A stretch of 23,507 bases of DNA from a virus: positions 1 to 23,507 of the IMG/VR virus record IMGVR_UViG_3300032883_000214. The stretch is one strand, 5' to 3'. The stretch's first letter is position 1. Each line of letters begins with the position of its first letter. A program made the position numbers and the translations under genes. The notes below the pieces were generated by a model, which saw only the letters and a program-made list of their open reading frames with translations, was not told the DNA's origin and did no database searches. Positions 14,289 to 23,177 of this stretch are shown piece after piece.

Positions 14289-16186
14289 GACCCCTCCATG
14301 GGAAACTCGTTCCGAGGGTTCGGTCCTGCGGGACCCCTCCGAACCCCCACGTTCTGCGTGGCGGATAGAAGATCCCCCATGTTCGTGCCCCCGCTGCGGA
14401 GTCGGATGTCCTGACTCGCCGGACCTCCCGGAGTGCCCGGAACCCCGGCCGGGCCTGGTAGCCCGGCCGGCTGGCGCGAGGTCAGGAACCGCTCCGGGTT
14501 CGGGACGTTGAGCAACGTCGCAGCGAACCGTGCGGCCTCGTACAGGTCGATGACGGGCATCCCCGTCATGGGATCAACCTTGCTGCCGAAGACGTTCACC
14601 CAATCCATGAATTGCTTGGTGCGGATCTCACGGGAAACGTACGCCATCGACCCCACACGGATCGTGATCTTGACCCGCGTACGCTTGAGGAAGTCCCCCT
14701 GGAAAACGTCCGCAAGCGCCGGGGCCTGCTCCATCCCGACCACGTGGGCAAAGTCCTGGACCGTCCCGTACTGCTGGATCATCGACCAGAGACGGCGTAC
14801 CCCACGGGTCACGAACGCAGCCACGAGCTGCACGTCGTCGGACTCACGCACGCGAGCCGTCGACTCCACGATCGAGGCTTCGGTCGCGGTGGCCCCCTTC
14901 ATCTGCCCGCCCCGACGTTGCTCCGTGGATCCCGAGAGCTTCGTCAAACCGTCCTCGATGATCCCCCGCAAGGCGTAACTGTCCGAGGGGATCGGGAGAT
15001 CCGGGATCGGATAGACCGCCCCGTCCGGGGGACCGTTGAAATGCACGATCCCACAATCCGTGGGAGACTCGAGCATCGCCTCGTCTTCGTCGGCCGCGAA
15101 TGCTCCCTGCTCCACTCCAAACTTCCGGGAACTGGTGCGGAGGATGTGCCCGTACTGCGCGGAGTTGAGTACGTTCAAGCAGACTGCGGGGTTGAACCAG
15201 GTGGATACGTCCGAGACCCCGTACACCTCGTCCGGGTCCTCGTTGAAGACCAGGATCTCGAATGGGAACCCACGGGCGTCGTAGGGGTTCACATCCTCCC
15301 GCAGGAACTTCGTGTGCTCACCCTTCAGCACCCCACCTTCGTCCATGACCAAGAGCGAGTTGGTTTCCCGGTCCCAGATTTCGTAGATCTTCACCAGGTT
15401 GCCAAAACGGTTGGACACCCGGTCCTCGGAACTGACTACCGTGCCGTCCCCGGTCTTGGCCGCGAACACCGGGTAGGCATCCTTGAACCCCACCGTCCCC
15501 TCAATCCCCGCCGCGATCGACTTCGTATACGTCGAGTCCTTCCGGACCTCCTCCTCCGGGCGCAGGATGATGTGCGCCACCCACCGGGCCCGCTCGAAAC
15601 GGTTGCCGGCCAACGGGTCGATCAGGAACATGCGGGGGGAAACACGGAAGGCAAACGGCAACGCCTCCTGGATCCGGTAGTCCGGGTAGTAGGGCTTCTC
15701 CCCCTCCTCTTCGTCCAACCAGAGATCCGGGTCGAACATACTCTGGGCCATCACCGAGGCGAGTTCGTTCTCTACCGACCCCTCACGCGCCAAACCTCGC
15801 AAGTACCCAAACTTCATCACCCCCAAACCACAAACCAGGGCATCCAGGATCGTGCTGCGACACTCGCGCTGGTAGTCGATCTCGTCCAGGGTGTGGTTGA
15901 GAATCATCTCCGCTGCGGTGGCGTAGGGGAGAAGTGTCGATCCGATCGGGTCCGCGAGAACGTCGGGGTTCTGGAAGTAGAGACCCGGGATCACCGTACG
16001 AATGAGTTGGAAGATGTAGTTAATCCAGAGAACCTGACCCGCCGGCTTGTCACTCTCTGGAATCTCCTGACGGTAGTGGCTAAGATACTTGCGCCAGGTG
16101 TCGTACCGCTGCTTCAGCAAACGGTCACAGAGACCAATCTGCTCAGACCAAGACTGGTACCGCTCAGACTCACTCTTCCTTGGCAT
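14285..16186 (-). CDS. Portal protein
   Basis: 633 aa from ATG 16186, which shares one base with the terL stop (TGATG). The N-terminal part has WINYIFQLIRTVIPGLYFQNP (about residues 53-73), a hallmark of a large portal group, followed by AAEMILNHTLDEIDYQRE, DALVCGLGVMKFGY and FRVSPRMFLIDPLAG. The segment GLTKLSGSTEQRRGG and the long helix rich in charged residues after it suit the portal stem and crown. The C-terminal tail is rich in Gly and Pro, with five consecutive G-X-Y triplets (GLPGPAGVPGTPGGP). It forms the dodecameric ring at one capsid vertex through which DNA is packaged by TerL. Confidence 0.93.
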   Translation of the reverse strand: MPRKSESERYQSWSEQIGLCDRLLKQRYDTWRKYLSHYRQEIPESDKPAGQVLWINYIFQLIRTVIPGLYFQNPDVLADPIGSTLLPYATAAEMILNHTLDEIDYQRECRSTILDALVCGLGVMKFGYLRGLAREGSVENELASVMAQSMFDPDLWLDEEEGEKPYYPDYRIQEALPFAFRVSPRMFLIDPLAGNRFERARWVAHIILRPEEEVRKDSTYTKSIAAGIEGTVGFKDAYPVFAAKTGDGTVVSSEDRVSNRFGNLVKIYEIWDRETNSLLVMDEGGVLKGEHTKFLREDVNPYDARGFPFEILVFNEDPDEVYGVSDVSTWFNPAVCLNVLNSAQYGHILRTSSRKFGVEQGAFAADEDEAMLESPTDCGIVHFNGPPDGAVYPIPDLPIPSDSYALRGIIEDGLTKLSGSTEQRRGGQMKGATATEASIVESTARVRESDDVQLVAAFVTRGVRRLWSMIQQYGTVQDFAHVVGMEQAPALADVFQGDFLKRTRVKITIRVGSMAYVSREIRTKQFMDWVNVFGSKVDPMTGMPVIDLYEAARFAATLLNVPNPERFLTSRQPAGLPGPAGVPGTPGGPASQDIRLRSGGTNMGDLLSATQNVGVRRGPAGPNPRNEFPMEGS

Positions 16187-17877
16187 CAACGTGTTCCAAT
16201 CCTTGGAACCCCTTTACCCGTACCCCGGAACAGGTGCGGGAACAACGCCTCGAAGGACTCGGCCTTGGGCTTCTTCTTCGGGGCCGCAGGACCCGGCACG
16301 ACCAGCTTCGGCAACCACGCCAACGCATCTATACAGTCCTTCGTCTCCCCCAAGGGGAAGTGCAACATCTCCGTCGCCAGGAAGTCCTGCCCCGGTACGA
16401 GGGCATAGTAGAGATCCTCCGGCGGGAGAGTCAAGTCCGTTCCGTCCCTCACTCGGAGGTAGAGGCCCCGCGTTCGGGCAAACTCCGCGAAGTCCTCTAT
16501 TCGCATGTCCTTAGACTTGTGGGTCTCTCCTTCCAAAGGATGAATGTGGAACCACTCCCCCCGCTCCACACACTGGGCCTTGAACGAGTGGTAGATCCCT
16601 TTCTGGAACTGGAAGGACTCGATGCCGATCTTGATCGGCTTCCACCGGTGACGGATCTGGAAGAGCGTTTCAATCAATCCCTCGTTGCCTACGATCCGAT
16701 CCCGGATCACCTCCATGACGTAAATCTCGTTGTCGGTCGAAATCCCCACGGTGTCGAATGCTGAATATGCAGAACTCGCCGTCTCCCCACGACTGGGATC
16801 GAGGATCGTGATGTAGACGAAGTTGGTGGGCATCGGGAAGATCTCACCTTCCGCCGTGCGGCGGTACCGCTCGTTGTAGAATCCGAGGTTGTGGAGTTTG
16901 TAGACCTTCGACTCATCGGGGAGAGGGTCGTTCATGTAGAGACATGAGTAGAGCTCCGCCCCGAGAGTCTTCTTCATCTTCGCCAGGAAGGCTTTCGTGT
17001 GGCGGGTCGGGAAGTAGAGTTTACCCGCGGAGTTGACCGCCGGTTTGCAGTATTCCCGCCACTCCCGAGGCTCACGAGCACGCCGGCGCTGGCGTTCCTC
17101 GGCCTCGATCCGCCCATAAGGGTCTGAGAAGTGCCAACGGGTGCCGAAAAGCATCCGAGGCCCGCGCTGGCCCGGGTCGGACGACCATGGGGTCGTCCGC
17201 CCAACCCGCGGGCGCGTGAAGGGGTCGATCAACGGGGCCACCACGTTCAGGGACTGGTTGATCTGAGCCATGATCTCGGGGTTTCGACGGGTCATTTCGT
17301 TCACGGGATCGTCGATGATTACCATGTCATAGTGCTGAGAGGTCTCCGAGGTCTTGATCGAGCTCGCAATCCACGAACACTCCACCCGGAAGAGCGTCCG
17401 ACCTGTGAGCTTGATCCGATCCGTCCTCCAGGTGTCCGTCGTGCCCTCTCCGTGAGGTACTAGGTCCCCGTAGAGAAGCCGAAACGTCCGGTTCGACTCG
17501 AGATGCTGCTTTCCAACCGCTAACCACCCCTTCGTGTAGTCCATTTCCCAGCTCAGAGACATGATTCGGAGGTTCTTGTCCTTCGTGAAGAGCCAGAGAG
17601 GCAACCCTACCGACCCGATCGTGCTCTTGAAACACCCTCGGGGAGCCAGGATCAGCATGTCCTCCCACAAGTACCGCTGAATGAAGTCGCAGATCTCCCA
17701 GTGAGGCTGAATCGCCATGTCTGAGTAGCCGAGAACGTACTTCGTGAATGCATAAAGGGAAGCGTCAGAGACCCGCTTCAACTTCTCGGCCAGGAGAATG
17801 AATAGACGCTGCTTCTGCTCCCGTGGAGTCCAGTCCCCCTGGAGTAGAGACTGGGTGAGTACCTCTTCCTGCCTCAC
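16186..17877 (-). CDS. terL: Terminase large subunit (packaging ATPase/nuclease)
   Basis: 563 aa with a GTG start at 17877 that overlaps the terS stop in GTGA. Walker A is LAPRGCFKST (77-86) and Walker B is YDMVIIDDPVNE (183-194). FGTRWHFSDPYG (244-255) is a segment typical of this terminase group. The RNase H-like nuclease half carries its acidic residues in ITILDPSRG (D360), IGIESFQ (E420) and ETKDCIDALAW (D514 and D517). All motifs are intact, so the motor should be active. It translocates DNA into the head through the portal and cuts the concatemer. A proline- and lysine-rich tail (PAAPKKKPKAESF) follows the nuclease domain. Confidence 0.96.
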   Translation of the reverse strand: MRQEEVLTQSLLQGDWTPREQKQRLFILLAEKLKRVSDASLYAFTKYVLGYSDMAIQPHWEICDFIQRYLWEDMLILAPRGCFKSTIGSVGLPLWLFTKDKNLRIMSLSWEMDYTKGWLAVGKQHLESNRTFRLLYGDLVPHGEGTTDTWRTDRIKLTGRTLFRVECSWIASSIKTSETSQHYDMVIIDDPVNEMTRRNPEIMAQINQSLNVVAPLIDPFTRPRVGRTTPWSSDPGQRGPRMLFGTRWHFSDPYGRIEAEERQRRRAREPREWREYCKPAVNSAGKLYFPTRHTKAFLAKMKKTLGAELYSCLYMNDPLPDESKVYKLHNLGFYNERYRRTAEGEIFPMPTNFVYITILDPSRGETASSAYSAFDTVGISTDNEIYVMEVIRDRIVGNEGLIETLFQIRHRWKPIKIGIESFQFQKGIYHSFKAQCVERGEWFHIHPLEGETHKSKDMRIEDFAEFARTRGLYLRVRDGTDLTLPPEDLYYALVPGQDFLATEMLHFPLGETKDCIDALAWLPKLVVPGPAAPKKKPKAESFEALFPHLFRGTGKGVPRIGTR

Positions 17878-20129: not shown

Positions 20130-21131
20130 ATGCCACACGAACTGTCCTACGACGGAGAGGTAGTCGAGATGTCGGCGGTCATGGAAGGCGGCGAGCCCTG
20201 GCACGGCTTGGGTCAACGCCTAACCGCCCGAGCCACGAGAGACGAGATCCTGACCGCTGCGAATCTGTCCTGGCCGGTGCTTCAGAGCCCCGTGATTCTG
20301 CGGGTGGGTGGTGTTGATCTGGAGCTCGATACCCACAAGATCAATTACCGTGTCCTGACCGATGGCACTCCACGCCCGCTGGGCGTGGTGGGTGCCGACT
20401 ACTCCGTAGTCCAGCACTCCCAGCTAGGGGAACTGGCGGAAGCGATCGTGGGGGAGTCCGGAGGCATCTACGACACCGCCGGAGCGATCTACGGTGGCCG
20501 GCGGGTCTGGGTCTGCGTCAAGCTGGACTGGCTCCAGAACGCGATCCAGGGAGACCCCATCGACGCCTATCTCACGGTCATGTCCAGCCACGACGGTTCC
20601 ATGGCTGTTTCGATCTGGCGTTCCGGTATCCGCACGGTCTGCAAGAACACGATCATGTCCGGAATCAGCCAGGCCGAAGGCCGTGGGAACCTGTGGCAGG
20701 TGCGTCATACGTCCGGTGCCCGTGTCAGGCTCGATGAACTCAAGCGTACCCTGGTTGGGATCCGCGAGGACTTCCAGCAGAACGTGCAGACGCTCCAGGC
20801 TCTCAAGGCTGCTCCCTGGGACCTAGACGTGGTGAACCGGATGCTGGAGGACCTGTGGCCCATCGCAGACGTGGAGAACCCCAGCCGTGCCTACTCGATC
20901 CGCACCGACAAGCGGGACCGCGTTCTGGAGCTGGCCCGCGACGAGAGCCGCGGCAACAACGGAACCACGCTCTACGATGCCTACAACGGCCTCAGCGACT
21001 ACGTGAGCCATGAACTGGTGCCCGTGCGCACGATCCAACAGGCCGAACGCCGGATGCTGTCCATGGCGAACGGCACCGGTGCGGATCTTCTGGTCCAGGG
21101 TCGCAAGGTCCTGACCGATTCCCTGAAGTAG
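20130..21131 (+). CDS. DUF932 / phage-plasmid-like protein (TIGR03299 type)
   Basis: 333 aa, ATG at 20130 with GAGGTG about seven bases upstream. The start MPHELSYDGEVVEMSAVMEGGEPWHGLGQRL contains WHGLG, the signature of this family, which is widespread in phages and plasmids and sometimes called LGT-type or phage/plasmid-like protein. Later family-like segments are LGVVGADYSVVQHSQL (about 83-98), GGRRVWVCVKLDW (121-133), IRTVCKNTIMSGI and the helical C-terminus ending in a region with NGTGADLLVQGRKV. Its biochemical role is not established in the family. Length (usually 300-400 aa) is normal and the gene looks complete. A strong hairpin follows. Confidence 0.88.
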   Translation: MPHELSYDGEVVEMSAVMEGGEPWHGLGQRLTARATRDEILTAANLSWPVLQSPVILRVGGVDLELDTHKINYRVLTDGTPRPLGVVGADYSVVQHSQLGELAEAIVGESGGIYDTAGAIYGGRRVWVCVKLDWLQNAIQGDPIDAYLTVMSSHDGSMAVSIWRSGIRTVCKNTIMSGISQAEGRGNLWQVRHTSGARVRLDELKRTLVGIREDFQQNVQTLQALKAAPWDLDVVNRMLEDLWPIADVENPSRAYSIRTDKRDRVLELARDESRGNNGTTLYDAYNGLSDYVSHELVPVRTIQQAERRMLSMANGTGADLLVQGRKVLTDSLK

Positions 21132-21516: not shown

Positions 21517-21681
21517 ATGCGTAGAACGGTTTTCCAGGAGGCAGCCATAGTCGGAGTCTGCGTCTTGGTCGGCCTTCCCTGTCTGCTGCTGAAACTCTAT
21601 GTCCCAGTCGTGATCGCAACCGTGGGCATCGGTCTGGTCCTGGGTTCAATGCTCTTGGAAACGATCGAGCACTACCTGTAG
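21517..21681 (+). CDS. Small membrane protein with two hydrophobic helices
   Basis: 54 aa, ATG at 21517, GGAGG five bases upstream. The basic start MRRTVFQEA is followed by a hydrophobic stretch IVGVCVLVGLPCLLL (11-25), a short turn KLYVP, a second hydrophobic stretch VVIATVGIGLVLGSMLL (31-47) and the tail ETIEHYL. This gives a hairpin-like membrane protein. Holins can be this small, but a holin in an early module with no endolysin beside it is unlikely; a superinfection-exclusion or host-membrane role fits as well. The gene is 10 bases before the clamp gene, whose GGAGG overlaps its TAG. Confidence 0.75.
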   Translation: MRRTVFQEAAIVGVCVLVGLPCLLLKLYVPVVIATVGIGLVLGSMLLETIEHYL

Positions 21682-21691
21682 GAGGTGATCC

Positions 21692-22984
21692 ATGCAGAAG
21701 GTAACCGTTGACGGTGCTCCCCTGAGCGAGGTCGTCCAATGGGTGCGCCGTGCAGCTCTCGTTAGGGGATTGAGCCTGCCCATCCTGGAGTCCGTGCTGC
21801 TGAAGGCTCAAGCCGGCAGGCTCTACGTTCAGGGGACGAACCTGGATACGTACGCCACGGCCTGGCTTCCGTGCCAGGGGGATCTCAATCCCGTCTGTAT
21901 CAACGCCGGGCAGCTCGGATCCTCGCTGGGCAGCAAGGGACCGATCGAGCTGGAGGTGGAGATCCAGGACGGCACGCCGAGGCTGCACGTGCGGGATGGG
22001 GTGTCCGACGTGGTTCTCTGCACCGTGCCCGTGGAGGACATGCCCACCGAGCCGGGGATGGAGAAAAACTCGAAGATCGAGCCTTTCGGGTGGTCCTTCG
22101 ACCCGGGTCATGCGTTCCACAACGCTCTGGCTGGCGCATCCTGGGATGAAATCCGCCCCGAGTTTTGCGGTGTGTTCCTGGAGGTGAAGCAGGATCGGTG
22201 CCACCTGACCGGAACCAACGGACGCCGGATGCACCATGACACGATCACGTCCGGAATCTGGGCCGTACCCAGCAGCCCGGTTCTGATCCCCGCGGTCAGT
22301 CTGCACCGCGTTCTGACCGCGGGACTGGCCGGAAAGGCATCGAAGCGGAAGAAGGATCCGAAGGTCCTGCTCAACGTGTCCCTGATCGGCAAGAGTTACG
22401 TCCAGTTCTCCTACCCCACCGGGAAGGACCTGTCCTTCGGCAATCGTGCAACCATGCGTTTGCTGGAAATACCTTTCCCCGACTACAATCGCGTCATCCC
22501 AACCATCTCCGAAGAGCGGTTCAAGATCGAGGCCGAGCGGCTGTCCGACGTGACCTCACGGGCTCTGCCGCACACCGATCGGCTCACGCACCAGGTCAAG
22601 ATCTCGGTCAGTCCCGCCGGCATCAAGGTCTCAGCCGAGCATCAGGGATTGGGTACGTTCGAGCAGTCGATCACGCCCATCTCATGGAACCCCGACCCGT
22701 TCGTGGTCGTGTTCAATGGGAGTTACTTGCGAGATGCTCTTCTGGTCTTCCCCGGAGAGGTGGTCTCATTCTCTCAGGACCAGAACATCGTGGTCGGCAT
22801 GCTCCGCACCGATACCGACCCGGATCGGTGGGTGCTCATCATGCCCGTCAGGCTTCCGGAGACAGCTCCCAAGGAACACAAGTGTCCTGAGTGTGGAGCT
22901 GTAACCGAGGAAGGAGGATGCCCCACCTGCAATCCTCCGTGCCCCAACGCCGAGGAGAACACCGATGTGGAATCCAGTTCCTGA
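21692..22984 (+). CDS. dnaN: DNA polymerase III beta-like sliding clamp with C-terminal zinc ribbon
   Basis: 430 aa, ATG at 21692 with GGAGG six bases upstream. Clamp signatures are LPILESVLLKAQAGRLYVQGTNLD (29-52), IRPEFCGVFLEV (154-165), a second-domain VLIPAVSLHRVL (197-208) and EIPFPDYNRVIP (259-270), with the third domain ending in WVLIMPVRL (380-388), the normal end of bacterial beta clamps. Here a 42-residue tail follows with CPEC (398-401) and CPTC (410-413), a CxxC-x8-CxxC zinc ribbon, then an acidic end. A ring clamp would hold a polymerase on phage DNA; the ribbon may bind DNA, a polymerase or a regulator. The clamp assignment is strong; the tail is seen directly in frame, with no frameshift. 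Confidence 0.88.
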   Translation: MQKVTVDGAPLSEVVQWVRRAALVRGLSLPILESVLLKAQAGRLYVQGTNLDTYATAWLPCQGDLNPVCINAGQLGSSLGSKGPIELEVEIQDGTPRLHVRDGVSDVVLCTVPVEDMPTEPGMEKNSKIEPFGWSFDPGHAFHNALAGASWDEIRPEFCGVFLEVKQDRCHLTGTNGRRMHHDTITSGIWAVPSSPVLIPAVSLHRVLTAGLAGKASKRKKDPKVLLNVSLIGKSYVQFSYPTGKDLSFGNRATMRLLEIPFPDYNRVIPTISEERFKIEAERLSDVTSRALPHTDRLTHQVKISVSPAGIKVSAEHQGLGTFEQSITPISWNPDPFVVVFNGSYLRDALLVFPGEVVSFSQDQNIVVGMLRTDTDPDRWVLIMPVRLPETAPKEHKCPECGAVTEEGGCPTCNPPCPNAEENTDVESSS

Positions 22985-23177
22985 GTTTACCCGAGAGAAC
23001 GTAGCTGCCGGATCACGGCTCCTGGAATTGTGGTTGGGCACGGTGAACCGTGCCGGCTACGTGATCCCCCCGCATCTGATTGGAGAGATTGCACGCCTGG
23101 CAATCAGAGTCGTTGGATGCCCCGTGGGACCTAAGATGCGCGTGCCCGGCTATGAACCGGAGGAACCCGATGCCTAG
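22965..23177 (+). CDS. Small early protein overlapping the clamp gene
   Basis: 70 aa, ATG at 22965, 20 bases inside the 3' end of the clamp gene, with GAGGAG seven bases upstream. The protein is probably helical in the middle (TRENVAAGSRLLELWLGTVNRAG, then PPHLIGEIARLAIRVVG) and ends in a Pro/Glu-rich tail (GYEPEEPDA). No family recognised. Overlaps at both ends show that it is translated within the early operon, and the link to the clamp suggests a replication-related partner, though this is inference. Confidence 0.74.
   Translation: MWNPVPEFTRENVAAGSRLLELWLGTVNRAGYVIPPHLIGEIARLAIRVVGCPVGPKMRVPGYEPEEPDA

Follow-up and report, generated by a model that had tools for sequence, protein, structure and literature searches.

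The question raised by this locus is whether a phage sliding clamp really continues past its usual C-terminus into a cysteine-containing tail and, if so, what such a tail would be doing on the ring. The window, i.e. the whole stretch of DNA analysed, is a virus record of 23,507 bases. Coding in its left two thirds is mainly on the minus strand, and the genes for terminase, portal and the major head protein are located there; the terminase large subunit (16186-17877, minus strand) has only 21-28% identity to 14 matching phage records, among them ANMV-1 virus and a virus associated with Methanomicrobiales. The clamp gene and the elements in front of it are the following:

20130-21131, plus strand: DUF932 protein (PF06067), the gene before that of the clamp
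21680..21689, plus strand: Shine-Dalgarno-like AGGAGGTGAT of the clamp gene, ending two bases 5' of the ATG (read from the sequence)
21692..22984, plus strand: phage DnaN-type sliding clamp with a C-terminal extension, 430 aa (Pfam, PHROG, TIGR00663, PDB and Foldseek matches)

The window encodes a phage DnaN-type clamp. Domains I and III scored above the Pfam gathering scores (PF00712, 26.6 bits vs 24.4; PF02768, 35.5 bits vs 27), domain II stayed below (PF02767, 12.1 bits vs 27), and phrog_947, 'DNA polymerase processivity factor', covered residues 2-390 with an E value of 2.6e-33. The 48 distinct PDB sequences matching below E 0.01 all bear the name DNA polymerase III beta or beta clamp, and include fusion constructs with MutL (two) and SMT3 (one). 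In an AlphaFold model built from 50 sequences the clamp had a mean pLDDT of 85, and the best 50 Foldseek matches listed were beta clamps, with TM scores of 0.72-0.78 by query length and up to 24% identity (M. thermoresistibile clamp). Thus, despite the low Pfam score of domain II, the whole chain was modelled and matched as a three-domain clamp. The TIGR00663 equivalog score was 89.7 bits, below the NCBIfam cut-off of 137.65, and to judge from this score the protein is a phage homologue and not a bacterial DnaN equivalog.

What distinguishes this protein from bacterial beta clamps (DnaN; TIGR00663, PF00712/PF02767/PF02768), with which it shares the three-domain fold and, for the most part, the pocket motifs and the MPxRL end, is a 42-residue tail with four cysteines after MPVRL:

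22841..22855, plus strand: MPVRL, the usual clamp C-terminus and equivalent of pocket subsite II (alignment A1; by the pocket list in PMC11139829); apart from its ATG no start codon lies in frame close to the ribbon
22856..22984, plus strand: 42-residue C-terminal extension plus stop, consisting of the linker PETAPKEHK, a Cys4 module and an acidic end (from the sequence)
22883..22930, plus strand: CPEC-x8-CPTC, a putative zinc knuckle pair (1 found vs 0.02 expected; the same in the second contig, L002)
22952..22957, plus strand: GAGGAG, where ribosomes probably bind for translation of the following gene, within the coding sequence of the tail
22965..23177, plus strand: downstream ORF of 70 aa overlapping the clamp gene by 20 bases (no PHROG match, no Pfam family at cut-off)

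The tail comprises clamp residues 389-430, encoded by bases 22856-22981 and followed by the stop codon; past WVLIMPVRL the frame reads PETAPKEHKCPECGAVTEEGGCPTCNPPCPNAEENTDVESSS and then stops. CPEC is encoded at 22883-22894, CPTC at 22919-22930 and a fifth cysteine at 22940-22942, and the net charge of the tail is -7. The codon pattern for CxxC-x8-CxxC occurs once in the window, compared to a mean of 0.02 per dinucleotide shuffle (2 of 100 shuffles had one), and in the six-frame translation of the window (about 47,000 codons) the tail motif is the sole CxxC-x(4-20)-CxxC. Read in the clamp frame, the codon usage of the tail scored below 96% of in-frame 42-codon blocks from the training phage genes and above 98.5% of the out-of-frame blocks, hence the tail looks coding but atypical. 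Both the GAGGAG and the ATG of the next gene fall within the last codons of the tail.

The same tail was found in a second, separate contig, IMGVR_UViG_3300035701_003987 (L002), which begins at clamp residue 246 and extends 18 kb further. The two sequences differ at 7 positions over 1,081 bases, none of them beyond clamp residue 368, and the tails are identical. A third contig (L001) stops at clamp residue 298, before the tail. Searches with the neighbouring genes (DUF932, PolA, terminase) led back to the contig of L002 (as L135); the near-identical contigs L133/L296, L134/L297 and L136 added no clamp C-terminus, and no clamp was present in the stretch covered by the distant PolA contigs L137 and L138. 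The sequence-only reading, which had described a 430-aa clamp homologue with a normal end and an in-frame 42-residue Cys4 and acidic tail, is thus borne out by the ORF, by Pfam, by phrog_947 and by L002. As a separate observation, a unit of 60-66 bases is repeated in tandem at L131:13711-14006 (4.7 copies at period 66); immediately downstream of this array a minus-strand ORF of 1,083 aa has its start.

The rarity of the tail was assessed in several collections. In a profile-guided search of viral contigs the best 80 of at least 319 relatives were inspected, one of which was L002's own contig; none of the other 79 clamps had a CxxC tail, and in the majority MP[MV]R was followed by no more than one or two residues. 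Twenty-six reference-phage records matched, and after 10 apparent repeats or close copies had been left out, all 16 inspected clamps ended at or within six residues of xPxR, with no CxxC. A pattern scan of viral contigs gave 29 matches, among them a single tailed clamp (L020, on the contig of L002), and this was also the sole fused clamp among the at least 120 matches listed for a looser pattern. The scan of 84,980 bacterial and archaeal genomes gave 40 matches and no clamp by HMM. In five of these 40 loci a single frame contained MPxR/S together with the two CxxC, none being a clamp by HMM; two of the five look ComF-like. A clamp-specific scan, demanding clamp motifs and a CxxC 13-43 bases from MPxR, yielded 33 matches, 20 of them with a clamp HMM match, in some cases partial; only in one of the 20, again L020, was the CxxC inside the clamp ORF. 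The numbers from the scans apply to clamps with the particular ends that the patterns demand, and the counts of C-termini leave aside the plasmid clamps (39 records).

Taken by relatedness, the close relative L002 (97%) has the tail, the inspected distant relatives (about 21-28% identity) are without it, and no intermediates were found. Absence of the ribbon from all close homologues had been named as an observation that would speak against the architecture: it applies to the distant relatives inspected, and not to L002. The search for a C-terminal CxxC-x8-CxxC in phage clamps, suggested with the original description, gave the contig of L002 as the one tailed clamp among the matches listed. 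A clamp with a fused zinc ribbon was not found in the open-access full-text literature (subscription journals and other preprints were outside the scope), and the earlier description, too, knew of no described clamp of this kind. The fused Cys4 tail is a confirmed and rare clamp architecture. In the course of this work we noticed that at L095:2501-3733 the clamp frame extends about 60 residues past MPMRV, without a CxxC, and that the extension corresponds to a separate ORF in L098; L095 may be a clamp fusion of another type, or its clamp may have lost a stop codon.

Does the tail form a zinc ribbon? The spacing of its cysteines, C-x2-C-x8-C-x2-C, is also that of the RecR zinc finger (PF02132). 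On score the tail is not a member of this family (E 0.59, 10.5 bits vs a cut-off of 22), and no other zinc family reached its cut-off with the 42 residues. A tblastn search with the tail against the 'phages' collection gave no match up to E 10. In the AlphaFold model the block means of pLDDT for residues 391-430 were 43-61; both models had two short bridges in the tail, with block means of about 51-67 around the cysteines. Since no zinc family was matched at cut-off and the models are of low confidence here, 'zinc ribbon' is a motif-based term, resting on the two CxxC knuckles at ribbon-like spacing.

Small ORFs directly behind the clamp gene were then compared between phages. Of the 19 other clamp-positive matches of the clamp-specific scan 16 were examined (L320 and L327, which have the ORF of L310, and L322, which is like L303, were left out). 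Eight of these 16 loci, which came from a scan demanding a nearby CxxC, have a separate CxxC-bearing ORF of 51-119 aa starting -4 to +12 bases from the end of the clamp stop, the start codons having been picked by a simple rule. Two or more CxxC are present in L263, L299, L308, L317 and L326, and one in the other three (L310, L312 and L323). The small ORF of L308 shares the reading frame of the clamp and lies 12 bases past the clamp stop, so that loss of one stop would yield the layout of the window; similarly, in Rhizobium phage RHph_TM3_3_14B (L004) a same-frame ORF with CPHC and CIEC starts three bases past the clamp stop. These loci share with the window the order clamp, then CxxC module. 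They differ from it in that the modules are genes of their own, four of the eight have an added helical part (IRRGD..LLDR-like), and none has an HMM match to the tail. No PHROG was matched by any of the six separate CxxC-bearing ORFs scanned (L004, L087, L263, L308, L323, L326).

An unselected set consisted of 50 non-redundant clamp loci chosen without a CxxC requirement. In 21 of the 50 one of three small families follows the clamp: the helical family A at 11 loci, family B (ribbon plus helix) at one and the Cys-rich family C at 10, with one locus having both A and C; the HMMs for these families were built partly from the same loci. Forty-eight of the 50 loci could be scored for enrichment. 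Cys-rich small ORFs were found behind 9 of the 48 clamps, compared to 9 of 234 control long ORFs (Fisher p 9e-4), the loci not being independent because most belong to family C (phrog_6074-like). ORFs with CxxC..CxxC were not enriched behind clamps in the unselected set (1/48 vs 1/234), and the window tail had no HMM match to family A, B or C up to E 10.

Several features of these small proteins are recorded here as observations in their own right. Proteins of family C, located directly behind the clamp, have about 77-108 aa and mostly the motif W-C-x-[HR]-C ... C. Loci of this type are L008, L016, L050, L078, L090, L094, L096, L100, L103, L106, L112, L113 and L125, and two of these loci belong to rhizobial reference phages; both Cys-rich proteins scanned (L008 and L016) match phrog_6074, of unknown function. 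The helical family, found behind 11 of the 50 non-redundant clamps, has a motif like IRxGxxDDAIxTLER (L072, L073, L076, L080, L083, L089, L099, L104, L108, L121 and L123; also L006 and L102), and this is resembled by the motif of the IRRGDxxEAxxLLDR plus CxxC family (L087, L299, L308, L312 and L323). The small helical and CxxC families behind clamps are candidate clamp cofactors.

Pocket residues were placed in the window clamp by motif, starting from their positions in the E. coli sequence. The equivalents are R155, F158, T175, G177, R178, R179, M180, P263, R267, V268, N342, Y345, M384, P385, V386 and R387. Twelve of these (R155, T175, G177, R179, P263, R267, V268, N342, Y345, M384, P385 and R387) agree with invariant or nearly invariant columns of alignment A1 or A2, and the exceptions are F158 (usually Leu), R178 (usually His), M180 (usually Leu) and V386 (usually Met). 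As listed in the pocket description of PMC11139829, subsite I of the E. coli clamp is made up of R152, L155, T172, G174, H175, R176, L177, P242, R246, V247, V360 and M362, and subsite II of H175, N320, Y323, V344, M362, P363, M364 and R365. By motif, M362-R365 of subsite II on that list (PMC11139829) correspond to M384-R387 of the window clamp. Because the start of the tail directly follows these residues, the tail exits from the edge of the pocket, which agrees with the original proposal that it sits at the peptide-binding face, in so far as the motif placement and the pocket list (PMC11139829) go. Separately, comparison of window 21692-22795 with L001 and L002 revealed 12 non-synonymous codon changes and 1 synonymous change; F158L and R178H, both in L001, bring back the usual residue at pocket positions, and low-coverage sequencing error may underlie the codon differences between the three.

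The sister contig (L002/L135) carries replication genes, among them those for a polymerase, a DnaB-type helicase and a TOPRIM protein whose N-terminus has CxxC pairs. The polymerase, located in this contig and not in the window, is a 797-aa replicase (L135:4147-6540) in which domains for UDG (uracil-DNA glycosylase), 3'-5' exonuclease and family A polymerase (PolA) are fused. A loose clamp-binding pattern was absent from the UDG-exonuclease-PolA protein (0 vs 0.86 expected by shuffling), which is weak evidence, since such a difference is unremarkable and weak motifs exist. Among the 11 replication-region proteins of the sister contig there were 2 matches to clamp-binding motifs, about the level of shuffled sequences.

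Five readings of the tail were weighed, and their order of likelihood was docking module, tolerated fusion, gate, free ribbon product and error. The first, which we favour tentatively, is that the tail is a built-in docking module for phage replication proteins. Recruitment of a polymerase or transcription factor by two such modules per ring, or a block on host factors, had been suggested in the original description as what the tail could do. The module would go back to a small ribbon ORF that lay immediately after the clamp stop and became fused, in frame, to the clamp gene; with small CxxC-bearing ORFs following the clamp stop in 8 of the 16 selected loci this origin is plausible, not demonstrated. 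The four cysteines would bind one zinc per subunit, the nine-residue linker would place the module beside the peptide pocket on each ring half, and the module would help to keep replication proteins of the phage itself on the ring, in particular the UDG-exonuclease-PolA replicase of the sister contig, in which no canonical clamp-binding peptide was seen. Against this reading, the tail is identical in its sole two copies and no fused relative was found outside the lineage, which leaves no variation in which selection could show. The low model confidence of the tail, its lack of a match at cut-off to zinc families and by HMM to the small families behind other clamps, and the missing enrichment of CxxC..CxxC ORFs in the unselected set also count against it. 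A wider generalization, which we consider rather doubtful, would be that phage clamps repeatedly pair with a zinc-ribbon cofactor encoded behind them, fused here at the edge of the pocket into a 'self-equipped' ring recruiting a PolA-type replicase that has no peptide motif.

A ribbon ORF could also have become part of the clamp, neutrally or recently, when a stop codon was lost, leaving a tolerated tail that sits idle on the ring. This reading, somewhat unlikely in our judgement and closest to the favoured one, would fit the atypical codon usage, the finding of the tail in one lineage only in the scans made, and the fact that the other inspected clamps manage without it. The intact state of the four cysteines in both contigs speaks against an idle tail, although two near-identical copies cannot discriminate, and with an ordinary stop codon and the next gene's ribosome-binding site lying inside the tail the arrangement looks settled.

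A little less probable is a gate, in which the negative tail would cover the positively charged area around the pocket in the same subunit; host clamp-binding peptides would then bind less well, reserving the ring for phage partners. The net charge of -7 and the start of the tail at the pocket are compatible with this, and PMC11139829 describes the surroundings of the E. coli pocket as strongly positive and the flanks of clamp-binding peptides as mostly negative. However, no clamp-binding-like peptide was recognized in the tail by eye, and for gating a Cys4 module would be superfluous.

An internal start at M384 (ATG 22841) might give a second product, a free 47-residue ribbon peptide made beside the fused clamp, much as other phages encode a separate CxxC-bearing protein directly behind the clamp. 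The ATG is in frame and GGTGGG lies 5' of it, but this is a poor ribosome-binding site, and M384 is a conserved pocket residue that the clamp needs anyway; we regard such a product as improbable. That a sequencing or assembly error joined two genes, the other objection raised with the original description, is very improbable, although small Cys ORFs are found directly, and sometimes in the same frame, behind the clamps of some phages and although both alternative frames have nearby stops, with end positions 22890 and 22904. L002, a separate contig, has the same sequence here, and the window has no in-frame ATG, GTG or TTG between MPVRL and CPEC; if clamp and ribbon were two genes, the second would thus lack a start codon.

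Returning to the docking module, a precedent for a phage clamp serving as a platform for phage-specific partners is T4 gp45 with gp33/gp55 in late transcription (PMC9690074). A difference is that gp45 is a trimer bound through the C-terminal motifs of its partners, and zinc goes unmentioned in that review. The known partners of the beta clamp, according to PMC11139829, share one pocket, to which they bind through short motifs. A folded module fused beside the pocket would be another way of choosing clamp partners, and a clamp equipped with such a tail would be an example of a replisome that a phage assembles on a ring which it encodes itself.
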